This document shows, in pieces, positions 1 through 48,056 of a stretch of DNA of 64,000 bases. Position 1 is the stretch's first letter. Every line of letters begins with the position of its first letter. The DNA comes from Ophioderma brevispina (taxonomy: Eukaryota > Echinodermata > Ophiuroidea > Amphilepidida > Ophiodermatidae), in contig JAMKCH010002922.1 in NCBI GenBank assembly GCA_023653785.1, positions 1 through 64,000 on the forward strand. The letters are read 5' to 3'. The position numbers were made by a program, and so were the translations under genes. The notes below the pieces were generated by a model, which saw only the letters and a list, made by a program, of their open reading frames with translations, did not search any database and was not told where the DNA came from.

Positions 1-821
1 ACCCTATTACTGAAAGAGCCCTGCCTATAGTACCTGACCCTCGGTTTAGATTATGAGCCACTGCCGGATATACCTACATCGGCTCTAATTACCTTGACAC
101 TGTTGCTTACCCCTAATTTGGTTATACTGAATTACGTGACCTGAATTTGGCAAACAATCATTCTTTTTGCCCGTGATAGAATTTGTGGTACACATTCTAT
201 TTGTTCCCTTGGGATTCATATCTGCCTAGAAAGAGATATAACTATTAATTATAAGAGGGCCTTGGCCAAGACACGTAGTGTGACGCAAATAAGATGCTAA
301 CCTCTCGTCTTTACACGGGGGGGTGTGTGGTTCCCGATGAACTTTCGCTCCGGTGGCGCTAAAAGCTAAAAAGCTTTCGTAAAAAATCTTCCAGGTAATC
401 GTTCTCTCATCCTTTCCGTTCCATTTAGAGACCCAAAATTTGAAGGCAGCACCTTCACCGGGGTTAGGGTATGCCGGCAAAGTCCGAAGGGTAGGGCGGG
501 GGGGTTGCCACCCAAGGATTTTAGTGGTGGCATTTTTGAAAATACATTGGCCCATTAGGCTCTAAAACTCTAGTTATTAAACTAGCCAATTGCCATCCTT
601 TAGAACTGAAACCGCATGAAATCCGATACTTCTACGTTTTTTAGAGCAAAATTGAATTTTTCACCTATTTGTACTGTGGAAAATGCCAATTTTGCGCCAC
701 TCGCGGACTTCATGGCGTCATTGTGACACCATACGGATGCTAATCCTCTAGGAAAGCGAGAGGACAAACCTTTCGCAACCTAACACCTATAGATGATACT
801 CTATCGCTCTCTAACCAACCC
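1..821. other. No recognised gene; AT-rich flank
   Basis: I see no gene I can name here. A minus-strand open frame of 109 codons (555 to 226) exists, but its product has no motif I recognise, it is preceded by no promoter signal I can see, and its composition is that of the surrounding DNA. It is most likely chance or an old repeat. If kinase exon B belongs to a gene running right to left, this segment would be a downstream intron or 3' flank of that gene. Confidence 0.4.
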
Positions 822-925
822 TGCTTGATAGCTCAGTCTTTTTTTTAGAGCGTCGTGCATGTAATACGAAGGTCGCCGTTTCGAATCCGGCAGCGGCCAT
901 GGTTTTTTTTTTTTTTTTTTTTTCA
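822..925 (+). repeat. tRNA-derived SINE head with T-run
   Basis: The stretch from about 822 to 898 reads like a decayed tRNA. It has an A-box-like TAGCTCAGT near 829 and a B-box-like GTTTCGAATCC near 879, spaced as in a tRNA gene, with a pairing block GCCG...CGGC around the B box. A run of eight T within the D-loop position would stop RNA polymerase III, so this is not a working tRNA gene. A run of more than 20 T follows at 902. The closest reading is the 5' head of an old tRNA-derived SINE, or a tRNA pseudogene. The anticodon cannot be assigned safely. Confidence 0.5.
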
Positions 926-1944
926 ACAAACCCTGTCGTGCGCTGGCCATTCCAGAAAGAAATTTATAAATATATAACATTTAATATTACAATAAAATTT
1001 CTCCAAGTAGTTTTAAAATTTCATTTACCATCTAGGTATGTTTGGGTACTTATTTCCATGGAAAGTAGGGGGGACCCTACCTATCCATGTATCAAAATCA
1101 TAAGCATTGGGTGCTTTATAACAACTTCTCGAGGGGGGGTGGTCACCACCCCCCCCCCCCTTTTTAAACGTGTCACAAAAGGCTTGGTAACACATGGATA
1201 ACCCCAACTGTTATGAATGAGATATTGCATTAGTTCGTTAGTTGTATGGCCCTTTCTATATGTAGAGGTTACTAAACCAACTATTATAATAGATTGCATT
1301 TTTAGTTGTGGCAATTTCCTATATCCTACGTACTAAATATAATGGCAATTTCTAATGGTGTTTTCACCTTTCAGTAGCCTTAATTGAGCGGCCATTTTGA
1401 ATTTTCCAGCATTATTACACCATATTAAACTTTCAGAATCTAATTTTATGTGGTCAGTACTCTTAATTAATTAATTGATTGATACATTGGACTGCATGAA
1501 TTTTGATTTATGGCAATAAGAGTCAATAATAATTGGCCAATTTTTGTAGATTGGTGAAAAGTTGGGTTTTGGCGGCCATTTTGGCCGCCATCTTGGATTT
1601 GAACATGTTAACATATTGTAATACCATTTAATAATCTTGAGGTTGCTTTTTTTAACATGCCATTTTATTATCCAAAACGCGTATTATTTTGTTTGTTCCT
1701 ACGCGCCTTACGAAAAATCCTAATAGGCTGTTGTGAATAATGTGATTTTTGGCGCCATTTGAGAATTTGGCGAAAAAAACCAATCTCCAGGGGCCCTTCG
1801 ACCAGAAATACAATATTGGCCCATATCACAATTGTTCCTTGGGTTCATATTATTCTAAAACAGTTGAGCTACCCTCTCCTAAATTAAGTGCATACATTTC
1901 TTATCTAGCTCCCTACTAAAACAGTAAGCTCAAAATATTTTTCC
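926..1944. other. Unannotated spacer with G/C palindrome and YY1-like motifs
   Basis: No gene is recognised. Two structures stand out. At 1133-1155 a G7-TGGT arm runs straight into its complement ACCA-C7, giving a near-perfect GC palindrome. At 1391-1600 there are three blocks of GGCGGCCATTTTG and its reverse, including abutting copies near 1572-1596 (CCATTTTGG then CCGCCATCTTGG). The same motif recurs in the array at 7.1-8.2 kb, so both may derive from one repeat family. Confidence 0.4.
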
Positions 1945-3060
1945 TGTTTGCTTTTTGAAGAAATGGCATTATTGAGAAAATATAGACCGCCAGATGTTTC
2001 GGCTGAAGATACTGGAGATTTACATCAAATATTGGTACCCTTACCACCTCTAATTTATCAGAAAGAGGTAATCAGCTTGCACATGATAACCAATGGCTGG
2101 ACACTTGGTGGATTAGTAAGACTCATGATAGAAGTTTGAATCATTTTTTGGTGGCCCACACTCAGGAAAGATGTTACTGAATTTGCAAATCATGTCATAC
2201 ATGTCAGGTGGTAGGAAAGCCAAGAAAATCCCACCAGCTCCACTGAAACCAATTCCAGCATTTGAGGAGCATTCAGTAAATTACATTGGATTGGTAGGCC
2301 TTGGCCAAAAACCAGTCAGGAACCAGTTTGTTGACTATAATGTGTGCATCAACCAACCCGCCTCAGAAAGCCAACCATTAAAATATCAAAGCCCCCTATT
2401 GTTAAAGCACTAACTTAGTTCTTTACACTTGTTGGCCTACCCAAGTCAATCCAATCAGATCAAGGTTCTAATTTCGTGTCCGGACTATTTCAGCAACTTA
2501 TGCTGATTAGGGATTTCACAATTTAAAAAAAAAAAATAATCTTCGCATATCATGGCCAGTAACAATGGGCACTGAAAAGGGTTCCAGCAAACCCTCAAGA
2601 TATGATGAAAAACATTTTGTTCGAATATCCACGAGGATTGGGATGAGTGAGTACATCTCCTATTGTGTGCTGCTAGGGAAGCGGTCCAAGAATCACTAGG
2701 ATTCAGCCCGTTTGAATTAGTATTTGGACATCAAGTCCGAGTGCCGTTACAACTTCGCAAAGAAAAGTGTTACAACCCTGACAGTGAATTGAACCTCTTG
2801 ACTACTGTATCTGGATTCAATTCAGACTAACAAGGGGCAATGGTAAATTTTGCTAGGACAATTTGAAGTACAGTCAAGTCAAAATGAAACACTGTATGAT
2901 AAAAAGCCAGGGAGAGAGTGTTTGAAAAGTGGATAAAGTTTTTGTATTTTTCCAATCCTGGACTCCATTGCATCTAATACGTGGTCCGTATGAGGTTAAA
3001 TCCAAGGTCAGTGATGTAAACTATGTTGTCAAAAGCAAAGCTGATTAATTGTCCCCTACA
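1945..3060 (+). pseudogene. Ty3/gypsy-type integrase remnant
   Basis: This is a decayed integrase of a Ty3/gypsy LTR retrotransposon, the enzyme that inserts the cDNA copy into host DNA. Reading across frames, the zinc-binding N-terminus survives at about 2010-2210 (LHQILVP, HDN, then CKSCHTCQVVGK). The catalytic core follows, with LVGLPKSIQSDQGSNF (second catalytic Asp region) at about 2426-2475. AVQESLGFSPFELVFGHQ lies at about 2680-2730, and a GPY/F-type C-terminal module, RGPYEVKSKVSDVNYVV, at about 2980-3030. Stops (for example TAG after VKALT at 2416), an A-run at 2524 and several frameshifts make it dead. It lies upstream of, and on the same strand as, the RT/RNase H block at 8.2-11.2 kb, whose own 3' end has no integrase. 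It may be the same element with an integrase-first pol order. Confidence 0.8.
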
Positions 3061-3074
3061 TCTTCTTATTTAAC

Positions 3075-4472
3075 CATCGCCAACCAACTAAATTGTCCTT
3101 GTCGCCAACTCAATAGCTGAGCAACCTCCTCGCAAATGGTCGCTCCAAGGACATTGAAAAGGATCAAACGCTCTCTATTAAAAAAAGAGATCACAAACTT
3201 CGTTAAGCCCGTGGCGTGGACTTTCATTTCACACCCTTCTCACTAGAGGAGCTTACATCTGCTATCAGCCAACAACTAAAGAGTGGAAAGGCCCAGGGCC
3301 TTGATAATTAACCACCGGAGTTTGTGATGCACTGCGGCCCATGATGTCTTGAAAAAAAATTATGGCTCCAGGAGTTCTAAACATGTTTCTTACCAGACCC
3401 TCCTTACCAAAGCTGGAAGAGGTCTGCATCATCGTGCACGCCCCAAACCACCCCAGCTGTTGACAACCCAAGACTCTGCCCCATTCACTACTGCGTATTT
3501 TCTTCAAACTCCTTGACGAGGCTGATCCTGGCCCGGCTGGAGCATGTCGTCGAACCCCATCTTGGCCTGACGAACAAGAAGATTTCCGTCGTTGCTGCAA
3601 GCACGCAACGGTCCATCAGATTGTAAAACTCACAAATGATATTGATATAAGCTTTTGAAAACCTTCGTAAGCAGGCGTCATCTTGATGGACCATTACTGC
3701 AGCATATGACACTGTGTGTCACCAGGGATTGACACTCAAGCTTCTCAGGATCCATCCCATTTCATCACCTTGTACAATTCATAATATGCACCTGCTTGCA
3801 ACCGTAGCTTGGTTCTTAATACCAGTGATGGGCAGAGCAGTCGACTTCATCGTGTCCGTGAGGAACGTAGTCGTCCCCAGGATCAGTACTGGGCTCCCGA
3901 TTTTTTCACCACAACATCTAATACGATATGGCTTAGCGACGATCTTGCATTTCTTCACTCGGACAGAAGCTGGACTGAGTAGAAAGTACACTTACTTGCA
4001 GCATATTGCCGCTACTTGCCAGCATATCTCAAGACCTGAGACGCAGCTGATTAAGCCAAGACCACCGCTCTGCTTCCATCTCAACACAAAGAGGCTCCAT
4101 CGCCAGCTTCAATCACCCTCAATGAGCGCCTCTGCCCAACAATCCTACACCAACTATCTGGGCGGTTGAAGCTTGATCGGCAGGCCTTACTTTATCCTGG
4201 CAGCATCTCGAGTCATTTTGTACAAAGGTATCTTCGAGGAATAACCTCCTGTGCACTTGCTGGATCTCATGGGGTGGCTAGCCCATTCACTCTATACGCA
4301 CCACCCGGCCCTGGTTTCTGGTCTAACAGTGGCCCCCTGCTGAAATATGCCTGCCCATTGTGCAATAGCTGCATTCATTCACACAAGAAGCTGGACACAA
4401 TACTCACGAGACCATGAGAAACCATTACTGGCTGCCTTCGTCCCACTCCATCTGAGTTTCTACAGTGCTTTC
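3075..4472 (+). pseudogene. LINE reverse transcriptase remnant, copy 1, 5' part
   Basis: This is a 5'-truncated, frameshifted reverse transcriptase of a Jockey/CR1-type non-LTR retrotransposon. Recognisable pieces in order: LLANGRSKDIEKDQTLSIKK (about 3135-3190), PFSLEELTSA then SGKAQGLDN (3235-3310), SLTRLILARLEHVV (about 3510-3552), TAAYDTVCHQGLTLKLLR (about 3694-3747; the first catalytic Asp box), LSDDLAFLHSDRSWTE at about 3930-3980 (the YADD box, now LSDD), and GVKLDRQ near 4170. The thumb region continues to about 4470, where an insertion breaks the element. Its tail resumes at 5999. A second copy of the last third lies at 18.49-19.25 kb, which confirms that this is one family. The exact clade is not settled. 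Confidence 0.8.
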
Positions 4473-5998
4473 AGCTTGCAAGTTACCCAAACCCCCCGTC
4501 CCAGCGTCGCCCGATCGGGTGGAGTGTTGATCACACATTTGTTCCTTTACCCCTGTCCCTGGGTCCTAGGGGGCCTGTAAAAATAAATTTAAAAATACGG
4601 CCCCAGTGGGCTTACCTGGACTTTCTGGGCGCACGCCTTAATCTCCAACATAAAAAATGAGAAGAAAAAAAAACAGAAAGGAAGAAGAGAAAAACTAAGG
4701 AGGAACGAAAATGATCTCGGATGTGTGGTGGAAAATGACAATTTAGAGCTTAAAATTTAAAGGCCTTAGCTGAGATGGACTGTTGGACTACTTTTCAAGC
4801 GTTTGCCGTACCAGATGTTTTTAATTGTTGTTCAGTACTGTGTTTTAATGTGGATTATTTCAATAAATGTTCCCCTTGCGGTTGTGACCAAAGTCGTGAG
4901 GGAAGAAAAAGTGAGAGATGGGTGGAGAGAGCGGCAGAGATATCGAAGTGAGATGGAGCATTGGCGGATACAGGTGGCCCGTTTCCCCATCTCGACAACG
5001 AGACCTACTTACGTTGAGAAAATAATCCTGTAACCCATAAAATTTCCCATTTTTGTTAATACATTCAATGCAGGGCCTCTCTTGGTTTGATAAATTACAC
5101 AAAACCAATTAATATTTTTTTTTTTAAACTGTTGTCATGAATTATAATAAAGTGGCCTACGTACCAATTTCAAATTGTTTCTCAAATATACATGGACTCA
5201 GTAATGTTTTGGAAAGTGGAACATGCAAGGGTTTCGTGCTGCGTGCCTGCCCCACCCCCGCAGCTTCATATATGAACTCTCCATGAACACTAAGGTCTAT
5301 AAAGCACAACAAGTTAGACCAGTTTAATTAGACCTGGTTTAAGCAGTTCAAAATTAGTTTTGCTCAAATTGATAGTTATTCACACTTTCTTCATAAGTAA
5401 TTATCAAATTTGAAAGATTAAAATGCAAATTTAAAAAAATAAATACAAAATACCTTGTGTCGGTGTAAAGGAATGTCTTTTCTGTTGGAAAACAAAATTA
5501 ATCTTAGACCGGGTCTAAAGTTAAACCCGGTCTAACTCTTTTATGCATACGGAACTAAAGTCTTTATATGTTATTACTTCAAACAAAACTAAAACCATTA
5601 GCTATATTTTACTTTAAAAAACATGTTATCATACCTCTATCATTAAAAAGTGAAACACTTACAATTTTCTATTTGTTTCTATCAAATTTTAATGAGAAAA
5701 TGTACTTTGGAAAGGGAACATTGCAAGGGTTCCGTGCTTCGCGCCGTACCCACCCCCTGGGTAGTCTCCATGAACACTCTACAGAGGGATAATTCAAACA
5801 AAAACACACATTAAGTTGCATCAACACACATTATACAGCTCCCATTCACCCCGCGTCGCTGACGCGTTGCATGGCCGTTTTGCATCTTGTAACTTTAACA
5901 TCTTTCACCGGGTATGGGGTTCTGGAAAACGAAGTTGGTGAAAGGGGCCCGTAACTCCAAAATTCTCCCCGGGCCCGCAATTTCTCTGGGCGGCCCGT
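4473..5998. mobile_element. Insertion of about 1.5 kb that splits the LINE
   Basis: The LINE coding sequence stops after a CTTTCAG that is also present in copy 2, and resumes at GGCATTGCACC near 5998. The 1.5 kb between is therefore an insertion or replacement. It holds no gene I recognise. Inside, a segment at about 5205-5300 is repeated in diverged form at about 5700-5795 (TTTGGAAAG..GGAACAT.GCAAGGGTT, then CTCCATGAACACT). Between them lies a palindrome-rich stretch at 5505-5538 (TTAGACCGGGTCTAA, then AACCCGGTCTAA). No clear terminal repeats or target duplication were found, so the element class is unknown. Confidence 0.5.
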
Positions 5999-6590
5999 GG
6001 CATTGCACCTGCAGAAGTGCTTCGGAGAGAACATCACACACACAAACTGGTGAATAAGGCTCTGTTGGACAACAAGCACCTGCTGCATAACACTGTCAAA
6101 GAATCACACCAGCTCGGCAGACAGATACTGCGCTCTCGCCGACCCTTTTGTCGACACGCTGCTAAACTCTCCAGCTCCCTATTCAACATCTTACAGGCAT
6201 GGAACACTCCCTGGCTAGATACTCCAAGACCAGACCAATTATAATTCACTATCACACCTATGACAGAACACCCACCTGGTAGCAATCTTCCACGTAAGGA
6301 ATGGGTCACCTTTAACAGGAGTCGGCCGCTTTAACAGCAATATGCACCGATGGGGGCTGCGGTCATCTCTAACCTGCCAATGTGGCTCTCCATCACAGAC
6401 TGCGGATCTCATTCTCAACGAGTGCCCTACCTTTCGTCCACCGGTGGATATAGACTTCCCAAACCCCAACCAATCAACAGTGAGCTGGTTCCACCAACTA
6501 GCAACTTCAACATATTTGGCTGCTGTCTCATACGCAAGAAGAAGGTTAACTCAACTTTGACTGAGATTTTACTCACAAAAAGGGTTGCTA
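5999..6590 (+). pseudogene. LINE C-terminal remnant, copy 1, 3' part
   Basis: This is the continuation of the LINE broken at 4473. It reads REHHTHKLVNKALLDNKHLL (6029-6088), then LPRKEWVTF near 6290, then a cysteine/histidine-rich tail (CQCGSPSQTADLILNECP, about 6378-6430). It closes with LAAVSYARRRLTQL and a stop at about 6558. The C-x-C...C spacing is the zinc-knuckle-like end found on many Jockey/CR1-type LINE proteins. Frames change near 6240 and 6330. The 3' untranslated end was not defined. Confidence 0.8.
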
Positions 6591-7079
6591 CCTTTTAATT
6601 AACATTGTCTTGTCAGCTGGTGGAGAATGGATATTCTCTCATTGCATCAATCGCAGCTGTACTGGGAGTTTTCTTTATAACATCTGGCTACTGGCTAGAC
6701 CTACTCCAACACCTCAACAAAGATCCTTTTCAGGACCATATCCTATCTTCTTAAACTAGAGATTTGTGTCTGGGTGTGTCACCATATTTCACTTTTTGCT
6801 ATTAATGTGGTATTACATCTCTAAAGTTACATCTGACTCAAAATTTGCTTTAGAATGTCCACAACAATTCATTCTCTGGCTCGCTCCTATTAATCTGTAA
6901 TCGTTTCTTCGGTTACATTTTCTTTGAGTCAGACTCGCTGTAGAGGAGGTGCAGCGAATCTGGCCCAATATCATTTCAAAAGATAGATGGGCATTTCGTT
7001 CCTGTGTACACAGGTCTATCCCCTTTACCTATATGGTTACAATGCCTATCTAAACAAATGAGCTACAACTTAAAAGTGG
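6591..7079. other. No recognised feature
   Basis: I see no gene or clear repeat here. It probably includes the untranslated tail of the LINE that ends at 6558 and the junction to the tandem array that follows. Confidence 0.35.
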
Positions 7080-8165
7080 CAATTTTGAAAATGGTATCAC
7101 AAACATATGGGTATCGCCATATTTTGTGCTTTCTATGTAGCTCACAAGCCAAAATCCAAGGAAAAATATACTGAATGATAATGGCGACTATTTTGAAATT
7201 CAATATGGGGGTCTAACAAATAAGCCACAATCTTGAACATAATTGTTGGAACATTCTCGGAAAACGGTTGCCCGTCTTCCCACACCAATGTAGAAATTGG
7301 ATCCTCATCAGAAGTCTTCCCAATTTTCCCAACATTGATCGATGGGTGTTGGGGAAGGGTAAGTTGAAGTGGAAGATTGGCTCTTAACTCTGGCCCAGGT
7401 GAACAATGTAGCAAATTGTGGTGAGGGTTTTTTCCAAGATTGTAGAACCCAGATTGTAGCATCATTGAAAAAACATACGTTGGTATAACTACCCTTTTAG
7501 CTTCCTATGTAGCTCGGAAAGCCAAGATATTGGGAGAAATGTATTAAAAATAGCAGCCATTTTGAAAATTCAAGATGGCGGCCAAACAGCTGGTCGAAAA
7601 AAATGGGAACAGTCAAATTCAATTTTCTAGGTGTCAATACTACCCAAAAAGAAAAAAAACCCAAGTATTTTAGGCCTGTATGTTGTTTACATGTCAAGAT
7701 ACAGGGCGAAGTATATTAAACATGTCGGCCATATTGATTTCAAGATGGCCACCAAACGAAATTAGTTGCAACTTAAATTAGGGTTAATATGGAAACCTCA
7801 TTATCTCAAACATGGGTATTGCCAGCGTATTTAGCCCAGTATGTTATTCAAAAGTCAAGATACAGGTCAAAGTTTATTCAACATGTCGGCCATTTTGAAT
7901 TCAGATGGCCGCCAAACAAAATTAGTTGCAACTTAAATAATGTTTTCTATAGAAACCTTAGTATCACAAACATGGGTATAGAGACCGATTTTACCTTTCT
8001 ATGCCGCCCACAAACGAAGATATGAGGGAAAATATATTGAAAATAGCGGCCATTTTGAAATCCAAGATGGCTGCCAAACGGCTGGTCGAAAAAAAAAATG
8101 GGAACAACCAAATTTGAGTTCCTTGGTGTCAATACTACCCAAAAAAGACAAAATATCAAAATGTA
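7080..8165. repeat. Degenerate tandem array, about 150-bp monomer, with YY1-like motif pairs
   Basis: A monomer of roughly 150 bp recurs about five times. Its order is: a phrase like GAAACC..AGTATCACAAACATGGGTAT, then AAGATA..GGAAAA.TATATT, then GGCCATTTTGAA followed at once by TTCAAGATGGC.GCCAAAC. Clear copies of the last block sit near 7555-7590, 7725-7757, 7888-7917 and 8045-8080. A longer unit (7548-7665) recurs at 8039-8150 with an offset of about 491 bp, including GGTCGAAAAAAA, GGGAAC and GGTGTCAATACTACCCAAAAA. The stretch at about 7215-7480 fits the monomer poorly and may be an insertion. It lies between the LINE tail and the gypsy RT. Confidence 0.65.
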
Positions 8166-8214
8166 GCAAAATAGCCAACAAATCCCAAAACATAACGATA
8201 AGGCACCATACTAA

Positions 8215-8520
8215 AAACTGGTGATGACATGCCTACTGGTTGTCAACCCAAACTTACAAACTCTGAAGTGCTCACCAATTTGGAAAACAAAAATGGGTCA
8301 CCTGGACAAGTCAAAACAGGATGAACTTTTCAATTTGATTGACAAGTTTGGTCATTTGTTTTCAGATGTTCCTACCAAAACAAATGTGGTGCATCATGAC
8401 ATTGATGTGGGTGATGCAACTCCTATCAAACAACACCCATATAGGTTGAACCCTGAAAAAGCCAAAATCTTGAAAGAAGAGGTAGACTATATGTTACAGA
8501 ACAATATAATTGAGCCCAGC
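8215..8520 (+). pseudogene. Ty3/gypsy RT N-terminal part
   Basis: This is the linker and first part of a Ty3/gypsy reverse transcriptase. It reads on one strand as HLDKSKQDELFNLIDKFGH, then DIDVGDATPIKQHPYRLNP and a run ending NNIIEPS at 8519. These are the standard blocks just before the WSSP motif of gypsy RT. The reading breaks at 8521 because a 1.5 kb transposon is inserted between EPS and DWSSPC. The frame resumes at about 10029. Confidence 0.9.
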
Positions 8521-10022
8521 AGGGGTGCAATTTCGTTGTAACTTGCGGGAATCAGGTTTGATTCTCGCCAGGTAATTTTGCGAGAATCAATTGATTCAGA
8601 CCTACTTCGGTAAGATTATGAATATATTATAAGGATAAAATTTATCCCATGCTTAAATTATCTGTTGGCGAACGTATCAGTTATTACCACGTATTTTAAC
8701 TGTTAGAAATCTAACTACAGAAGGCAGAAGTAAATTCTTAACAATTGTTTTAAAAACCATATAATTTGGAGCTGGAAATTTTTTAATTAGGCCTCACTGT
8801 TGCTTCGAATTGTGACACTACTGAGGCATCAACGACCATACAAGTTAACTACTTGCCGCGAGCTAGACAACAATATTCCAACTACAAGTATGAGTCCACG
8901 TTTGAGTTCTTTTACTCACATAAATTAGTGATAAATTAACCAAAATTCCATCTCTTCAGATCTAGAGTACTCAGAGTTCTCATACATGCATCCAGCATAG
9001 ACTTTTAAAAGCAGACTGCAGAAGCGACTTTGGAAGACAAAAATCAATATTATAAGGCTTGGGATTCTGATTTCATTTTCTTAATGATTTTGTACTTAAT
9101 TAGAATGCACTCAGTTGAAAAAAAAAAAAATCAAGAATCGGATGCATTTAATTGCACAAAAATGCACAATTTCCGAATTCTGCAGCCTTGCAAGCCTGCC
9201 GAATTCGCAACAGGTGGCGAAATCTCTCTTTCTATTTGCGTCAAAAAACACAAAATTACAATGTTGAAGGCACCGTTAGCAATTCCCATCAGTATTGAAC
9301 AGTCTCACCTGCTAAAATTTAGCATTTCCTCAAGAAATTCCATAGCCGTTACAGAAACGTCGGACTAGTATACTTCCCGCATATCACTGTTTAATTTGCA
9401 GACTGAAAAGGTACTGAGGCAAAGCATTTACCACATACCTAGATATATTACCTTGGAATTGCGGATACAAATTTGTTTTATTTTGTGTACAAACTAATGG
9501 AAAATAGACAAGGGTTAGTTTCTAACTTAAGATTTTTATTATTGCATTAATGTTAGTACGTTTTTAGAATTATTTGCCGTTTTTAGAATTTTTTTGCCGT
9601 TTTAAATGAAAAACTGCATTTTATATGGTACACTACTAGGGCACATGGTAAACACATGGCTTTGATGCGCATGGTAATTGTATTGGGGTCAGTCAATTTT
9701 AATTGATTTTCGTAAACAGTACGTGTTGATCGACGATTGTACGGACTTCTGTCATTGTAAAGTAGAATTTCGCATAATATTTGTTTGGTTGACATATAAA
9801 ATCGAACGATATTCATGAGTTCTTTTGAAGAAAAAAAATTCATTGGTTGTGATTCTCCTATTTCTATATAATCGGTAGGCCAAAGCATTATTTTTTTTCT
9901 TGACTGATTTTTCTCTTGAACTGAATTTTCTTGACGCGAATCAACTCTGATTCGCGTGTGAACATACGGGCGCGAATCTTTACGTGAATCGATTCGCGGA
10001 TTTGCGTCGAAATTGCAGCCCT
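8521..10022. mobile_element. Non-autonomous TIR transposon (hAT-like?) nested in gypsy RT
   Basis: The ends are inverted: AGGGGTGCAATTTCG at 8521-8535 matches, in reverse complement, CGAAATTGCAGCCCT at 10008-10022 (14 of 15). The 7-bp direct repeat GCCCAGC flanks it (8514-8520 and 10023-10029), and removing the insert restores the gypsy reading frame. Length is 1502 bp. Next to the left end is a hairpin GATTCTCGC..GCGAGAATC (8560-8588), and the right end holds several GATTCGCG repeats. If the flanking C and G are counted, the ends are CAGGGGTG and CAGGGCTG, as in many hAT elements, but the duplication is then 5 bp rather than 8. Open frames of 112 (plus) and 149 (minus) codons show no transposase motif I recognise. 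Confidence 0.85.
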
Positions 10023-10028
10023 GCCCAG

Positions 10029-11175
10029 CCACAGCGATTGGTCGTCACCATGTGTAATGGTACCAAAACCTGATGGGTCATATCGAGTGTGCCAAGATTT
10101 TCGGGCAACAAATCTAAAATCCAAAACAGATTCGTACCCGATACCAAGAATTGATGATTGTATTGATAAGATGGACATGCCAAATTTGATTTATTAAAGG
10201 GATACTGGCAAGTTCCACTGACAGAAAGAGCAAAAGAAATTTCAGCGTTTGTAACACCAGATGGATTGTACCAGTACAAGGTGATGCCCTTTGGCTTGAA
10301 AAATGCTCCTGCTACGTTCCAAAGATTGCTAAACAAGGTAATTGCTGAGGTAGATGGTTGTGAAGGATATATAGATGATTTGGTATTGTACTCTGAGACA
10401 TGGGAAGACCACATGAAACAAATGCACAAATTGTTTGAACAACTGTCCAAAGCCAATTTAACTGTTAATTTAGCAAAGAGTGATTTTTGTTGTGCCATAG
10501 TCACATATCTAGGCCACATTGTGGGTCAAAGGCAGGTCAAGCCAATCCAAGCCAAAGTAGAGGCAATAGACAAGTTTCCATCACCTACCAACAGGAAAGA
10601 ACTGATGAGATTTCTGGGTATGGCAGGATATTATAGGAAATACTGTCCTAATTTTTCTGTTATTGCGCATCCAATGACCAACCTGCTCAAGAAGAATACC
10701 AAATTTGTTTGGTCTGATGCATGCCAAGAAGCATTTGACAAAATTAAGGCCATACTCATGAGCTCGCCAGTTCTAACAGCACCTGATTTTCAGACTCAGT
10801 TCAAGTTAATGGTAGATGCTAGTGATGTGGGATGCGGTGCAGTACTCGCACAAGAGGGTGAAGACAAGGTGGAGCATCCAATTTGCTACTTTTCGAAAAA
10901 GTTCAATAAGCATCAGCGAAATTACTCAACCATTGAAAAGGAGTGCTTAGCCTTGCTGCTAGCCTTACAACACTTTGAGGTGTACCTGAGCTCACCTAAA
11001 CACCCAATACTTGTGTATACTGACCACAATCCACTCACTTTTCTCCACAAAATGAGAAACAAGAATCAGAGACTGCTAAGATGAAGTTTAACCATGCAAG
11101 GGTACAACTTGGACATCAAACATATTAAAGGCAAGGACAATGTAATTGCCGATGCCCTTTCAAGAGTCAGCTAAA
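10029..11175 (+). pseudogene. Ty3/gypsy reverse transcriptase - RNase H
   Basis: This continues the RT begun at 8215. Order: DWSSPCVMVPKPDGSYRVCQ (10032-10091), PIPRIDD (about 10140), FDLLKGYWQVPLTERAKE (about 10184-10237; first catalytic Asp), MPFGLKNAPATFQRL (10284-10328), YIDDLVLYSE (10368-10397; catalytic YIDD), the connection domain with FLGMAGYYRKY, then RNase H with DASDVGCGAVLAQ (about 10813), the ECLALLLALQHFE box (about 10941) and YTDHNPLTFLH (about 11020). The end is IKGKDNVIADALSRVS with TAA at 11172-11174. Damage is light: a small deletion plus frameshift near 10170-10185, and a nonsense TGA at 11082-11084 where Trp is expected. This is much younger than the integrase block. The polypurine tract follows 83 bp later with no integrase in between. 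Confidence 0.92.
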
Positions 11176-11257
11176 TGCGAACTCTCACAGCTACATATGT
11201 AGTAGCCATACGTACAGACTAAGGAAAGTTTTCATTGTACTCAAACTTTCTTTCTTT

Positions 11258-11268
11258 AAGGGGGGAGG
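11258..11268 (+). promoter_or_regulatory. Polypurine tract of the gypsy element
   Basis: AAGGGGGGAGG is an all-purine run placed directly before TGTGACAG. In LTR retrotransposons this tract primes plus-strand DNA synthesis and marks the 5' edge of the 3' LTR. Its position soon after the RNase H stop is the basis for saying that the pol gene ended at RNase H. Confidence 0.75.
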
Positions 11269-11316
11269 TGTGACAGACTCTTGAATATTACATTATTTCT
11301 TGTATATTAAATCATG

Positions 11317-11671
11317 TTAAAGGGGGATGGCCCGATTTAAGGATATGAAGTTTTCATCTTGATAGATTGGCCTTCACCCAAAAAACCCACCTGTAAAGTT
11401 TCGCGCCGATATTTCAATGCGTTTTCATGTAAGAGCAGAAAAACGTGATTTCGTAAGCCCCATACAGTACTGTGTAAAATTAATATTGGTCGACCAAATT
11501 GGGGTACGTTTTCGCTCATTACTTCCAAACCAAACATCCTTTGGCCCTAAGATTTCACAGGGTAAATAAGAAAAATAGTATCTTTCTTTTGATACCAAAA
11601 TGTTGACCACTTCCGGTAAAATCTGGGCTTCTGGGGACGAGGCTATTAGCGATCGGGCCATGGACCTTTAA
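11317..11671 (+). mobile_element. TTAA-flanked MITE, family 1, copy 1
   Basis: The element is bounded by TTAA on both sides (11317-11320 and 11668-11671). The termini are inverted: TTAAAGGGGGATGGCCCGAT on the left against TTTAAAGGTCCATGGCCCGA read from the right end. It carries no coding capacity. A nearly full-length relative lies in the opposite orientation at 47666-48020, sharing GGCCTTCACCC, GCCGATATTTCAAT, CCAAACATCCTTT and GACCACTTCC.GTAAAATC. TTAA target sites are typical of piggyBac and Kolobok transposons, so one of these is the likely mobiliser. Confidence 0.85.
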
Positions 11672-12488
11672 ATTTAATCATACAAATTATGAGTGAGGAG
11701 AACTGGAAAATATTAATATGAAACTTGCAATGCGTTGTGCAATAAGCATGACTTATCTGATTGACCTAGTTCTAAATGGACTAGATTGTGAGAACTTCCT
11801 GAATACAAACATGTCAGAAGATGTTCGCAGTCTGAGAACAAAAGGAGCACAGTGTCTTATCATCGTCATTCTAAGAACTGTACAGAGGTTTTTTGTTTCC
11901 CTAGAGGAAGCAAGATTGCACACCTGTTGATGAACAATAGACTTTGTGTAATTGCTATGTCAAAACACTTTGAGCAAAGGATGTGGACTTCCTTTAAACA
12001 TGTTTCAGCGAACTGAAAACTGAAAAGATTGTGAAATTTTGACTTGTCTTCGCTTGTTTTGTGTTGCATCATGGGAAATTTGCTGTGGACAAATTCTGTT
12101 GCAAGTTATTTCTCTTTGCCAGTTGACAAGCGATTTCAGTGAGTGTAGACCTCTCAAACAGAAGGTGGAGAACTTTGCATAACATTTGATTTTATAAAAT
12201 GTTATGTTATCTTATTATAATTTGGCTAATGTTGGATGTGTGTATGTATGTTCGCAAAAGGCTCCGTCAGTTTCGATCCATATTGCGCCAAACTCGCATG
12301 AAAGATGTGTGAGGATACCGGACGGGTTCTACGCTATATTTGGACGAAATCTGTTCAGAAATGGCTGAAAAATCAGCAAAAATAAGGTTGGTTGCTAAGG
12401 TAAATTACCATTTGTTTGTACACGTTACTAAGCGGCGAGTACGCAAGGTGCGTTGCGACGGGTGGTTACGCGTGACAACGGCGATTAC

Positions 12489-12590
12489 GCGTAAGACGCT
12501 ATATGCGGTACGCAAAAACAGGCTCCTTATAGTGCACGCGTAAGATGCTATATGCGGTACGCAAAAACAGGCTCCTTATAGTGCAAATGG
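12489..12590 (+). repeat. 49-bp tandem duplication
   Basis: The block GCGTAAGACGCTATATGCGG, followed by TACGCAAAAACAGGCTCC and TTATAGTGCA, occurs twice in a row with an offset of 49 bp and one C-to-T difference. The neighbouring DNA is rich in TACGCG and GCGTAA words. No function is evident. Confidence 0.85.
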
Positions 12591-13160
12591 TGTAGGGAAA
12601 GAAAGAAATGGTCGAGAACACATCGTGTTATTTCGCTTTGATTGTCGTATATATGGATACTACAGGTTACCGTACCCCAAAGAGTTTTGAAAAGAGAAAA
12701 TTAAGTAATGAAATATTGCTGTTTAATATTTCGAAAATAGGAACTATATAGGCCTAAGCTACAGGATATGCTGCAAACTAGGAATAGAAAATACGATTAC
12801 GGGATTTTGTGACGGGGGGGTCAAACTAGTTGAACTGTACTAGCAAGAATTGTGTCGCGAAGATTTATGTGGATCTGATTCTACAAGAGACTGGTGCGCA
12901 CCCAACAGTGAACTTTGAACTTTAGTTTAATGATTAGGTAAGAAATATAATAATTTTGTGCATTGTTAATATTTTATGTCGCGTTTAATGATTGATCAGA
13001 ATTCATTTATGTATATATTAAAATCATTGTTTTGAATTTACATCTTGGTCAAGTCAATCTTCTTACAAATAGTCATTGTGAATTTTGTTTATGAACCACG
13101 GGAGGTTACTTTTCTGACCTTGAGTACGTCTCGTAACACTCATCTCAAATTTGTTTAAAT

Positions 13161-13592: not shown

Positions 13593-13836
13593 AGTGACTT
13601 AGGGTTAGGGCGAAAGCCGAGTGATCTACTCGCTATAGTGACTTAGGGTTATGGTGAAAGCCGAGTGATCTACTCGCTATAGTGATTTAGGGTTAGGGCG
13701 AAAGCCGAGTGATCTACTCGCTATAGTGATTTAGGGTTAGGGCGAAAGCCGAGTGATCTACTCGCTATAGTGACTTAGGGTTAGGGCGAAAGCCGAGTGA
13801 TCTATTCGCTACAGTGACTTAGGGTTAGGTTAGAGT
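13593..13836 (+). repeat. 44-bp satellite carrying a TTAGGGTTAGGG core
   Basis: Units start at 13593, 13637, 13681, 13725 and 13769, with a partial at 13813, an exact 44-bp period. Each has AGTGA(C/T)TTAGGGTTAGGGCG, AAAGCC and a small hairpin CGAGTGATCTACTCG. Differences between units are single bases. The last unit loses its right half and runs into degenerate telomeric repeats. Confidence 0.9.
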
Positions 13837-13980
13837 TAGGGTTAATTATAATGCTAATCCTAAACCCAAACTGTAACCCTAACTCTAAACCCTAACCCTA
13901 AACCCTAACTCTAAACCCTAACCCTAAACTGTAATCCTAATCCTAACCCTAAACTGTAATCCTAACCCTAAACCTAACAT
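13818..13980. repeat. Head-to-head degenerate telomeric repeats
   Basis: On the plus strand TTAGGG-type repeats run from 13818 to about 13851. After a short gap (ATTATAATGCTAAT) they flip to CCCTAA-type repeats from about 13857 to 13977, with variants such as CTAACTCTAAACCC and AACTGTAATCC. The animal telomere repeat is TTAGGG. The order TTAGGG then CCCTAA is that expected at a fused pair of chromosome ends, although satellite amplification of a telomeric seed gives the same picture. Confidence 0.8.
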
Positions 13981-16559: not shown

Positions 16560-17740
16560 GCGGAACCTTGACCACACCCACCAGTTTCATCATCCTACCA
16601 CATGATTAGTGATTGACCTTGAAGGACCACCACATACCTTCAAAAATGGTTGGCATTGAATGTTGACCACAATTAACTCGGTTTTCATGACCATACAACC
16701 ATGTGCAAATATTCGACTTGAATGACTTTGAAGGACTACCAAACTTTTTGGCACTGATTGTTTGACCACACCCACCTGGTTTCATCCTCCTACCATATTT
16801 AATATTTTAACCTTGTATGCCCCCACATGACATTGAAATGACCTTCACAGTTTTCAACACTGAATGTTGACCACACCTCCACCATTTTCACCTCCTACCA
16901 CATGTTTAGTGATTTGACCGTGAATGCCTCGAGGACCTTGAAATGACCTTAAAATTTTTGGCACTGAATGTTGACCACACCCACAATTTTAATCCTCCTA
17001 CCACATGTGCAATGGATTTGACCTTGGATGACCTCGATGACCTTGAAATGACCTTCCAATTTTTTGGCACGAATGTTAGCACACCCTCCAATTTTTCCTC
17101 CTCCTACCACATTTTATGATTTGACCTGAATGACCTCGGATGACCTTGAAAGACCTTCAAAATTTTTGGCACTGAAGGGTTTGACCACAACCCACCAATT
17201 TTCATCCTCCTACCACATGGTTTAGTGGATTTTTGACCTTGGATGACCTCGAATACCTTGAAATGACCTTCACAATTTTTGGCACTGGGGGGGGGGGAAA
17301 TTTACCACACCCACCAATTTTCATCCCCCTACCACATGTTTGGTGAGTTGACCTTGAATGGACCCAGATGACCTTGCAATGACTTCAAAATTTTTGGCAC
17401 GAATTTGACCACACCCACCAATTTTCATATCCTACCACATGTTAAGTGATTTGACCTTGGATGACCTCGGATGACCTTGAATGACCCTTCAAAATTTTTG
17501 GCACTGAATGTTGACCACACCCCCCAATTCATCTCCTACCCATGTTAGTGATTTGACCTTGGATGGCCTCGGATGACCGTGAATGACCTGCAAAATTTTG
17601 CACTGAATTTACCCACCCACCAATTTTCATCCTCATCCACATGTTAAGTGATTTGACCTTGGATTGACCTTGAAAGTACCTTCAAATTTTCGGCACTGAA
17701 TGTGTGACCAACCCACCAAGTTTCACCATCCTACCACAAA
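16560..17740 (+). repeat. Minisatellite of about 105 bp, roughly 11 degenerate units
   Basis: A unit of about 100-115 bp repeats about eleven times with many small indels. Its phrases in order are GACCACACCCACCAATTTTC, ATCCTCCTACCACATG, TTTAGTGATTTGACCTTG, GATGACCTCGGATGACCTTG, AAATGACCTTCAAAATTTTT and GGCACTGAATGTT. Each unit carries three or four TGACCT half-sites in the same direction, with spacers mostly of 4 and 5 bases. The array lies in the intron or 3' flank downstream of kinase exon B. Confidence 0.85.
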
Positions 17741-18489: not shown

Positions 18490-19250
18490 GACAATTTATC
18501 TGGGAGTGAAGCTTGATCAGCAGCTTACTTATCGGCAGCATCTCGAGTCAGTATGTGCAAAGGTATCTTTGAGGAATAACCTCCTGTGCTGGATCTTCAT
18601 GGGGTGCTAGCCCATCCACTCTACGGCACCACCGCCATGGCTCTGGTCTATAGTGCTGCTGAATATGAGAACCATTACTGGCTGCCTTTGCCTCATTCCA
18701 TCTGAGTTTCTACCAGTGCTTTCAGGCACTGCACGTGAACATCACACACACAAACTGGTGAATAAGGCGCTGTTGGACAACAAACACCTGCTGCATAACA
18801 CTGTCAAAGAATCACACCAGTTCGGCAGACAGAGACCTTTATGTCGACATGCTGCTAAACTCTCCAGCTCAACATCCCCATTCAACATCTTACAGACATG
18901 GAACAATGTCTGGCTAGATACTCCAAGACCAGACCAATTCACTACCACACCTGTGACAGAACTCCAACCTGGTAACAATCTTCCACGCAAGGAATGGGTC
19001 ACCTTTGAACAAGATTCGCACAGGAGTCGGTTGTTTCAACAGCAATATGCACCGATGGGGGCTGTGACCATCTCCAGCCTGCCAATGTGGCTCTCGATCT
19101 CCATCATAGACTGTGGATCACAATCTCAATGAGTGCCCTACCTTTCGTCCAACGGTGGATATAGATTCTCAAACCCCAACCAATCAACAGTGAGCTGGCT
19201 CCACCAACTTCAACACATTTAGCTGATGCCTCATAAGAAGAATGGTTATT
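18490..19250 (+). pseudogene. LINE C-terminal remnant, copy 2
   Basis: This is the same family as the LINE at 3.1-6.6 kb, strongly 5'-truncated. It reads YLGVKLDQQLTYRQHLES (18500-18553), then, after frameshifts, MRTITGCL (18665-18688) and EFLPVLSGT. From 18735 it holds a long open stretch (REHHTHKLVNKALLDNKHLL through LPRKEWVTFEQ) to about 19130. The cysteine-rich tail is damaged. Unlike copy 1, it has no insertion at LSG. It ends about 120 bp from the splice donor of kinase exon B and lies in the opposite orientation to the kinase. Confidence 0.85.
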
Positions 19251-35149: not shown

Positions 35150-35935
35150 AAATTTAAAGGCAAACGCCAAAAGGTGGTAGAGCAAACATTCAGTAGAAAC
35201 TTGCTTTGTACTCAACCTGAATTATAACTGAAGGCAAATGCCAAAAGGGTGCTAGGGCAAACGCTCAGTAGGAATTTACTATTTATTCAGTCGTATTTTG
35301 TTGAACAAGTATGAAGGCAAACGCTAAGTGGCTAGAGCACACGCTCAGTAGATATTTTCTATTCATTCAATCATATTGTTGAACAGGCTTGAAGGCAAAC
35401 GCCAAAAGAGGCTAGAGCAAATGCTCAGTAGGTAATTTCTATTCATTCAATCATATTGTTGAACAGGCTTGAAGACAAATGCCAAAAGAGGCTAGAGCAA
35501 ACGCTCGGTAGATAATTTCTATTCATTCAATCATGTTGTTGAACAGGCTTGAAGGCAAATGCTAAAAGAGGCTAGAGCAAACGCTCAGTAGTTATTTGCT
35601 ATTCAATCTCATTTTGTTGAACATGCTTGAAGGCAAACGCTTAAAGAGGCTAGAGCAAACGCTCAGTAAGATTTGCTATATTGTATCCAATCTTATTTTG
35701 TTGAACATGCAAAAGGCAAACGCCAAAAAGGGAGCTAGAGCAAACGCTCAGTAGGAATTTGATATCAGTCAATTTAATTTGTTAAACAACTTGAAGGCAA
35801 ACACCAAAAAGCTAGTGCAAACTTTCAGTAATATTTGCTAGTATAGTCATTCAATTTCAACTGCTGATCGACTTGAAGGCAAACGCCAAACATTCAGTAG
35901 GATGTTAAAACTCTAAGGCAAACATCACGAGGAGC
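35150..35935 (+). repeat. Minisatellite of about 80 bp, about 10 units
   Basis: The unit is GAAGGCAAACGCCAAAAGAG, GCTAGAGCAAACGCTCAGTA, GGTAATTTCTATTCATTCAA and TCATATTGTTGAACAGGCTT. Copies start at about 35157, 35232, 35312, 35391, 35471, 35551, 35628, 35710, 35795 and 35875. The middle units (35391-35600) are the most alike and the outer ones the most decayed, which fits growth from the centre. GCAAACGC...GCGTTTGC-like words give each unit weak internal symmetry. Confidence 0.9.
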
Positions 35936-47665: not shown

Positions 47666-48020
47666 TTAAAGATCCATGGTCCGATCGCTAAAAGCCTCGT
47701 CCCCAGGGACCCAAGATTTTACTGGAAGTGGTCAACATTTTGGTATCTGATGAAAGCTACTATTTTTATCATTTACCCTGTGAAATCTTAGGGCTAAAGG
47801 ATGTTTGGTTTGGAAGTTTATGAGCGAAAATGTGCTCCATTTTGGTCGATCAATATTAATTTACACAGTAGTCTATGGGGCTTACAAAATCATGTTTTTA
47901 GCTTTCACATCAAAACGGATTGAAATATCGGCACAAAACTTTAAAGATGGGGTTTTGGGGTGAAGGCCATTCCAATGTTACAGAAACTTTATATACTTAA
48001 ATCGGGTCATCTCCCTTTAA
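47666..48020 (-). mobile_element. TTAA MITE, family 1, copy 2 (inverted relative to copy 1)
   Basis: Bordered by TTAA at 47666-47669 and 48017-48020, this 355-bp element reads on the minus strand as TTAAAGGGAGATGACCCGAT and so on, aligning end to end with 11317-11671. The two copies lie 36 kb apart in opposite orientations, one on either side of kinase exons A and B. Confidence 0.9.
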
Positions 48021-48056
48021 TCATTGTGATAGTAAATGGTTATTTCAGTGTCATAC

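Follow-up and report, generated by a model that had tools for sequence, protein, structure and literature searches.

Canonical Ty3/gypsy retrotransposons encode reverse transcriptase (RT), RNase H (RH) and integrase (INT) in that order. The stretch of Ophioderma brevispina DNA analyzed here (64,000 nucleotides, starting at the first base of a contig of the 2.5-Gb assembly; hereafter the window) carries an integrase remnant upstream of an RT/RNase H region, which raises the question whether both belong to one element with a different pol order. The integrase remnant and the RT/RNase H of the window belong to a single LTR-retrotransposon family. This family is a new one within the known Gmr1-like group of Ty3/gypsy elements, a kind that has already been described. 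The element in the window is probably one broken copy with the pol order integrase, RT, RNase H, and both halves are likely to derive from one insertion.

The organization of the window copy is summarized in Table 1. The two coding regions lie on the same strand, as the preliminary description had it, and are 5.18 kb apart. The integrase remnant aligns over its full length with two copies elsewhere in the genome (L012 and L013), almost over its full length with L014, and partially with L009, L010, L016, L017, and L020. Its left edge is sharp (1919/1920) in the alignments with L009, L010, L012, L013, and L020, which extend further upstream. No match was found between positions 1–1918 and the 5′ parts of L009, L010, and L012, and no gag, pre-integrase region or 5′ LTR was found in the window, which begins at the contig edge. 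The window copy is without its 5′ part, so a two-LTR structure is not visible in this copy itself; among the hallmarks of LTR retrotransposons it has the polypurine tract and the 3′ LTR only.

Table 1. Features of the broken retrotransposon copy in the window.
Feature	Position	Strand	Basis or remark
Integrase remnant, frameshifted many times, covering zinc-binding part, catalytic core and C-terminal part	1919..3034	+	DNA alignment, Pfam
Foreign sequence separating the halves (LINE-like pieces, intervening stretch, repeat array)	3035..8213	.	
LINE-like pieces	3116-4474 and 5999-6545		Related stretches at 18497-19209
Repeat array	about 7495-8153		
Linker end and N-terminal part of RT	8214..8519	+	Placed by DNA
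TIR insert	8520..10023	.	17-nt arms, 94%; 5-bp target duplication CCCAG at 8515-8519 and 10024-10028
Remaining RT and RNase H	10024..11174	+	
Polypurine tract AAGGGGGGAGG	11258..11268	+	
3′ LTR, TGTGACAG...CGTAACA	11269..13138	+	
Short inverted-repeat element interrupting the 3′ LTR	11317-11671		

Because of the many frameshifts, the integrase frame pieces give weak Pfam matches (rve, E 0.005, 2419–2523; Integrase_p58_C, E 1e-4, 2926–3045), and five further frame pieces of this region have no integrase match in Pfam. The start of RT alone has no Pfam match either, and its position was set by DNA comparison, while a 304-aa open frame (10170–11081) contains RVT_1 (E 3e-26) and RT_RNaseH (E 1e-32). 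The RNase H frame is interrupted by an in-frame TGA (11082–11084). It ends with a TAA (11172–11174), followed by 83 bp, the polypurine tract and the LTR start TGTGACAG, as claimed before; no integrase is present there. The range first given stopped at 11276; the LTR reaches 13138. Within this LTR, 600 bp (12223–12822) have no match, and L009 and L010 have about 240–260 bp at this place. The gap between the halves had been described as mostly insertions, a LINE and a tandem array. The array stands, and both LINE-like pieces recur elsewhere; the LINE itself rests on the look of its frames, as none of six pieces of this region matched a LINE domain in Pfam. These six pieces and one minus-strand frame of the TIR insert gave two weak Pfam matches, to unrelated families (E 0.059 and 0.11), and no convincing one. 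The site of the TIR insert is empty in L012.

Both enzymes are of the Ty3/gypsy type. Of the solved relatives, a Ty3-type RT-RNase H matches the RT-RH frame best (E 4e-58), and the relatives carry Integrase_H2C2, RT_RNaseH, and Integrase_p58_C, as do this genome’s canonical gypsy elements. INT-RT-RH is the normal order of Ty1/copia elements, and the domain order is the one feature that the window shares with them; with a Ty3/gypsy-type RT and integrase and an RT that is not copia-type, a Ty1/copia origin can practically be dismissed. The window element has no relatives in the viral contigs or the phage records searched, and an Rfam scan of the window returned no match above the gathering score.

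Further copies of the family in the same genome reveal how its pol is organized. The integrase precedes the start of RT in L012, L013, L014, L016, L017, and L020 (spacing 0.16–0.45 kb), and in L009 and L010 it precedes the rest of RT-RH, following a deletion. The reading frame runs unbroken from INT into RT in L017 (9322–9909, 196 aa), within the window’s own family, and in L029 (456–2726, 756 aa), a sister family. The Gmr1-like order proposed for the window is thereby borne out. In the 37 contigs matched by both the RT search (best 130 of 8005 candidates scored) and the integrase search (best 136 of 9508), which include the query contig L012, the nearest integrase lies upstream on the same strand in 36 and on the opposite strand in one. 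The integrase search misses decayed copies and does not list the integrases of the window, L009, L013, L014, and L020 that are known by DNA.

These counts also bear on the reading that the window holds a canonical RT-RH-INT element that lost its 3′ integrase and came to lie beside an unrelated integrase fragment. Its integrase and RT-RH are indeed 5 kb apart, and canonical loci do exist in this genome, with the same protein domain families as the window family (PR-RT-RH-INT in L027 and L028, RT-RH-INT in L035–L037). However, the nearest integrase lies downstream, where the preliminary description would have counted it as a refutation, in 0 of the 37 contigs, and the RNase H stop, polypurine tract, and LTR are common to L009, L010, and L012. 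Moreover, the canonical loci are 38–40% identical to the window in RT (among the best 130 of 8005) and fall on the opposite side of a branch with 100/100 support, which makes this reading very improbable.

The LTR-retrotransposon structure that the window copy has lost is preserved in its relatives. L009, L010, and L012 have LTR pairs that are 98.5, 95.9, and 92.7% similar over the longest aligned stretch and 4-bp target duplications (CAGT, TTGC, and CTGT, respectively). The LTRs of L010 and L012 start with TGTGACAG, so that copies with two such LTRs and an integrase before RT, which the first description named as support, are available; the 5′ LTR of L009 starts with TGTGATAG. L013 has LTR stretches on either side (86.8% over 303 bp). 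Every retrieved copy is incomplete; in L012, for example, about 1.2 kb behind the 5′ LTR and some 110 bp of RNase H are missing. A PBS-like TGGGGGCTCGTCCGGGAA is found six bases past the LTR in L010 and L013, is altered in L009, and is absent from L012. The gag of L009 contains a SCAN domain (PF02023, E 1.5e-9) that exceeds the Pfam cut-off, and the match in the sister family L026 stays under it (E 0.001). Since the canonical locus L028 likewise has a sub-cut-off match, a SCAN-like gag may not be exclusive to Gmr1-like elements. The tested gag and pre-integrase frames of L009 and L010 have no Pfam protease match; a DTG-like motif is visible by eye in these frames, which we take to be a candidate protease.

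Phylogenetic analysis places the element consistently. Integrase-first and integrase-last elements are separated at 100/100 in the RT trees and likewise in the INT tree, and both RT and INT fall with integrase-first elements from fishes and other animals. A grouping of the halves with different families, which the preliminary description would have taken as a refutation, was seen neither by DNA comparison nor in the RT tree or the INT tree. The INT tree is without the broken integrase of the window, which was placed by DNA beside L012, L010, and others. We should note that the integrase-last group consists of five loci (four in the INT tree) from one genome, with the order of L036 and L037 verified after they had been labelled integrase-last in the first RT tree, and that five fish integrase-first proteins stand in for the cod Gmr1 reference, itself absent. 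From the later RT tree, six rows were removed (P0033, P0187, L025, L012, L023, and L030) and P0245 was dropped as too short; L034 has an RT too short for the RT trees. L022 and L024, unlabelled in or absent from the tree, have an integrase upstream. No integrase was found in the stretch examined of L023, nor in the 3.4–3.6 kb examined upstream of L031 and L032, which lie on the integrase-first side of the later RT tree and for which the downstream stretch covered was short.

Protein relatives from other animals have the same organization. INT precedes RT in all of the 120 top relatives listed for the L029 frame; the queries of both INT-RT listings (best 120 of 2370 and best 120 of 2923) run from INT to RT, which favors such matches. 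The frame ends just past the RNase H motif in 102 of the 120 close relatives listed in set 1, in 78/120 in set 2, and in 44/120 in set 3, and a longer tail follows the motif in one, four, and 15 proteins, respectively; in the remaining proteins, many of them incomplete, the end motif was not found. Full-length integrase-first relatives among the listed proteins come from fishes, echinoderms, hemichordates, molluscs, a crustacean, and a sponge, and the named integrase-first relatives listed include sponges, a coral, and molluscs. Passages in three papers place the order in crustaceans (PMC3587641), an annelid (PMC8220671), and “several phyla” (PMC8556966). Its attribution to deuterostomes was thus too narrow.

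The closest known elements are those of the Gmr1-like group (Gmr1 of Gadus morhua, Gmr1-4 of pufferfishes, GyRex4/Saugg1, and LGF3 of Lamellibrachia), which share with the window family the integrase upstream of RT, the terminal RNase H, and the SCAN-like gag; statements in PMC3424704 and PMC4592553 link SCAN to Gmr1-like gag. The nearest RT-RH proteins among the best 120 of 3862 are 80% (a JGI protein) and 72% (Apostichopus, the nearest organism-named one) identical in a listing of proteins up to 531 aa, which shuts out long ones, and the window family is therefore regarded as separate from the named elements. Its 5′ LTR (about 1.15–1.18 kb in L009, L010, and L012) is longer than those of four pufferfish families, given as 337–518 bp in a passage of PMC11117352. 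More distant integrase-first lineages (‘B’ lineages: L033, L034, and proteins of Branchiostoma, Holothuria, Diadema, Pecten, and Halichondria) form a grade around the clade holding the window element in the RT tree. Among best-scored candidates they are 45% (RT, L033) and 43% (integrase, L033 and L034) identical to window-family queries. As in the window family, the integrase precedes RT in 120/120 listed relatives of L034. Many of the listed proteins have precomputed SCAN and protease domains.

Whether the two halves entered together is a separate question. The integrase had been reported to look more decayed than RT, and this difference is real. Compared with L012 and L014, the window copy has 40 private substitutions over 1031 sites in the integrase and 22 over 1397 in RT (Fisher p 0.0006), with 12/305 in the LTR block as an intermediate value; over six reference pairs, the integrase block has 2–4 times the private substitutions of RT (p 0.005 to 1.5e-7). 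Compared with L012, there are 52 indels over 1076 integrase sites and six over 1116 sites of the main RT block, an about nine-fold density. As a single insertion should age evenly, this uneven decay counts against one insertion and raises the alternative that the family inserted twice at this place, the older insertion leaving the integrase piece and the younger one the RT-RH-LTR. About 160 bp of the INT-RT linker are missing at the junction, which also fits two insertions. Yet the halves are collinear, on the same strand, and only these 160 bp are missing from an element of several kb, and 29 of the 52 integrase indels are one base absent from the window, a pattern that we would expect of uncorrected long reads and not of age. 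Abrupt switches also occur in other copies: L016 has two indels over 10024–10635 and 29 over 10635–11318, beside an insert, and L014 has 7–8% private substitutions in the integrase and RT start and 1.9% in the rest of RT. Two insertions are therefore unlikely in our judgment; if they did occur, INT-RT-RH would remain the order of the family, but one could no longer speak of one disrupted element in the window. We retain a single disrupted insertion, which the collinear halves favor and the uneven decay does not. The excess decay of the integrase may reflect an uncorrected sequence patch or a second, older copy.

Some further observations may be added. The switches in L016 and L014 both fall at an insert, and the junction gap of about 160 bp differs from what a clean insertion leaves. 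Plain age as the source of the integrase decay is weakened by the indel make-up, largely single-base gaps. That the integrase comes from a different family was dismissed, as the copies nearest to it in DNA are the ones that carry RT.

The pol order, the LTRs, the polypurine tract, the target duplications, the continuous frames of relatives, and the SCAN-like gag are observed; a life cycle like that of other LTR retrotransposons can be proposed. The transcript would run from LTR to LTR, and Gag-Pol would be cut by a putative protease. Minus-strand synthesis would be primed by a host tRNA right after the 5′ LTR, presumably tRNA-Pro in the window family, and plus-strand synthesis at the polypurine tract adjoining the 3′ LTR. 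Integrase would be made ahead of RT/RNase H, so that RNase H ends the reading frame, and integration would give the 4-bp target duplication. The window copy was probably broken when LINE-like and repetitive DNA came to lie between its integrase and RT, at the cost of about 160 bp of linker; a TIR element would have entered RT and another element the LTR, and everything 5′ of the integrase would have been lost.

For the rare integrase-first order of gypsy elements there is now a tested case, which other copies in this genome prove and for which its canonical elements serve as a contrast. The tree of RT and that of integrase are in agreement, and a single change of pol order occurs on the former, which makes the origin of the swapped order testable by wider sampling. 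It is conceivable, though we lean against it, that integrase-first goes back to a single old change defining a major Ty3/gypsy branch present throughout animals, from sponge to chordate; the described Gmr1 group would then be a part of this branch, and RT and integrase would have stayed together since the change. L031 and L032, with no integrase found in the upstream stretch examined, lower our estimate. The SCAN-like gag domain is of wider interest, as such elements are the presumed source of SCAN in vertebrate transcription factors.

The RNase H frame ends where the preliminary description had placed it, 83 bp before a polypurine tract and an LTR start. The integrase piece is weak in Pfam alone (rve, E 0.005; Integrase_p58_C, E 1e-4). 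The insert that splits the RT, presumably a non-autonomous hAT-type element, matched nothing in Pfam in the single frame tried; a copy of the same family elsewhere in the genome (L012) has the same RT site without it (DNA comparison with window 1-13000). The inverted-repeat element in the LTR has a second copy at window 47666-48024, in opposite orientation and 85% alike. Downstream, at window 13593-13977, a 44-bp tandem array of GTTAGGG-like units adjoins a CCCTAA-rich array and is possibly an interstitial telomere-like stretch.

Parts of the gypsy copy and tandem arrays in the window
Feature	Position	Characteristics
Integrase piece	1919-3034	delimited by DNA comparison with same-genome copies
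RT start	8214-8519	placed apart from the main RT by the 1.5-kb insert
Insert between RT start and rest of RT	8520-10023	1.5 kb; inverted ends, 17-nt arms; 5-bp duplication CCCAG
RT/RNase H main part	10170-11081	open, 304 codons; Pfam RVT_1 and RT_RNaseH
RNase H stop	11172-11174	
Polypurine tract, then LTR start	83 bp past RNase H stop	AAGGGGGGAGG, then TGTGACAG
Inverted-repeat insert in LTR	11317-11671	short element, 20-nt arms
LTR	to 13138	traceable to CGTAACA; contains the inverted-repeat insert and a stretch without match
Tandem array	16740-17738	104-bp unit, 9.5 copies
Tandem array	35229-35840	80-bp unit, 7.7 copies

The window covers positions 1-64000 of contig C2921 (76,753 bases). The assembly (2.51 Gb, 65,844 contigs) was searched with the 304-aa RT/RNase H frame, giving at least 136 matches among the best candidates scored. 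The flanks of 18 of these were fetched and compared with window 1-13000; two more fetched pieces are canonical elements. In L012, the counterpart of the window's integrase piece lies at 6073-7196 and the RT starts at 7651, the linker being lengthened by an insert of about 285 bp. Five other copies (L013, L014, L016, L017, L020; DNA comparison) have a gap of 161-179 bp, and L009 and L010 have the integrase and then RT-RH past a deletion. LTRs flank L009, L010, and L012 on either side, with longest paired stretches 98.5%, 95.9%, and 92.7% alike and adjoining bases CAGT/CAGT, TTGC/TTGC, and CTGT/CTGT, respectively, a pattern as left by integrase. The proposed arrangement, integrase directly before RT between two LTRs, is seen in same-family copies, with no complete copy among those fetched of this family. 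L017 retains a 196-codon stop-free frame that begins in the integrase C-terminal domain, spans the linker and reaches the RT start; its remaining RT sits elsewhere and inverted. In a sister family (L029), 756 codons are free of stops, connecting the integrase zinc domain in one frame across RT to RNase H.

Querying the assembly with the L012 integrase frame as well gave at least 141 matches. Thirty-seven contigs carry both matches, which is not a total, as both searches score best candidates and the integrase search misses known decayed integrases, including that of the window. In 36 of the 37, the nearest integrase lies on the same strand and upstream (at 2 kb or less in 33, at 4 kb or less in 35, and at 10 kb in one); in one rearranged contig (C44460) it lies on the opposite strand. 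A nearest integrase downstream of RT, which would have spoken against the proposed order, was found in none of the 37; contig C52827 has a second, more distant integrase 4.6 kb downstream.

The two halves in the window probably belong to one element, which the preliminary description considered plausible: they are collinear and lack only about 160 bp of linker between them. That the integrase is instead an older second copy, separate from the RT-RH insertion, seems unlikely to us given this collinearity, even though its greater decay is real. Counting changes private to the window against L012 and L014, we found 40/1031 substitutions in the integrase block and 22/1397 in RT (p 0.0006; between 0.005 and 1.5e-7 over six reference pairs). 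Relative to L012, indels number 52 over 1076 integrase sites and 6 over 1116 sites in the main RT block. The LTR block is intermediate (12/305 private substitutions; median 3.1% private). Private divergence of integrase and RT is similar in L009, L010, L012, and L017, and uneven as in the window in L013 and L014.

Small indels reach about 4-6% in stretches of L013, L014, and L016 and in window 1919-3034, next to parts of the same element that have almost none. Against the L012 integrase, L009, L010, L016, L017, and L020 show 0-8 indels, L013 61, and L014 47; indel-rich patches also start abruptly within L016. Single missing bases make up 29 of the 52 indels in the window's integrase block, where indels are roughly as frequent as private substitutions. 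These patches suggest an unevenly corrected assembly, in which the indel-rich stretches are probably uncorrected sequence. Uneven correction would mislead dating by decay.

In the RT-RH tree (42 rows, 10 of them without order label), the window frame groups with L010, L009, and L012 at 100/98. The same tree, of the kind proposed earlier for comparison with Gmr1 elements, separates integrase-first (27 labelled rows) from integrase-last (five loci) at 100/100, the cod Gmr1 reference not being among its rows. The integrase tree gives the same split (24 versus 4, 100/100), the window's own integrase being left out as too broken. An enlarged RT tree with 12 named proteins added (48 rows) still needs one change of order. 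These trees have no outside root, and their integrase-last rows are few and from this one genome, verified by Pfam (L027, L028, L035) and tblastn (all five). The integrase-first side of the 48-row tree also holds L031 and L032; tblastn found no integrase upstream of their RT in the 3.4-3.6 kb fetched.

Among the 120 best relatives listed for the 304-aa frame, 102 terminate at most 18 residues from where the RNase H end motif starts. For the L029 frame, integrase precedes RT in all of the 120 best listed relatives, of which 116 extend no more than 60 residues past the RT-RH match (proteins cut short included). Named holders among them are Amphiura, Glandiceps, Ptychodera, Apostichopus, Lytechinus, Strongylocentrotus, Antedon, five fishes, Penaeus, Biomphalaria, Solemya, Paramuricea, and the sponge Dysidea; among the matches listed for this sister family, the full-length ones that rank best by name are from the brittle star Amphiura (73%) and the acorn worm Glandiceps (68%). 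Two integrase-first polyproteins (P0130, P0161) are filed under bacterial and archaeal metagenome-assembled genome names and likely represent animal contamination of those assemblies.

Two more distant families of the same genome (L033, L034), only about 43-45% identical to that of the window, also have integrase before RT, and such lineages form a grade around the clade with the window's element in the unrooted 48-row tree. L034 has a 933-codon frame that stays open up to the limit of the fetched sequence and contains a gag end (weak SCAN), zinc knuckle, integrase, and RT start. Integrase precedes RT in 120/120 of its listed relatives, with named holders among sea cucumbers, sea urchins, lancelets, acorn worm, bivalves, newt, and the sponge Halichondria. 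The accessible text of open-licence papers yielded no report of integrase-first elements in sponges, which does not show that such a finding is unpublished.

Gmr1 is described as comprising gypsy elements with copia-like order or integrase upstream of RT, with cod, the tunicate Ciona, crustaceans, and an annelid named as hosts (PMC2582038, PMC3587641, PMC6238403, PMC8220671, PMC2774666). Other papers count Gmr1 among the clades found in several phyla (PMC8556966), mention copies from frog and pufferfish (PMC4131045, PMC11117352), and relate the SCAN domain found in vertebrate transcription factors to the gag of Gmr1-like elements (PMC3424704, PMC4592553). The gag frame of L009 gives a SCAN match (Pfam, E 1.5e-9). 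The window's element therefore represents a new family within the Gmr1-like group already described, the cod reference lying outside the comparison. The gag of the canonical-order locus L028 (5999-7288) also gives a SCAN match, below the cut-off (E 0.0006), so SCAN-like capsids may extend beyond Gmr1 elements.
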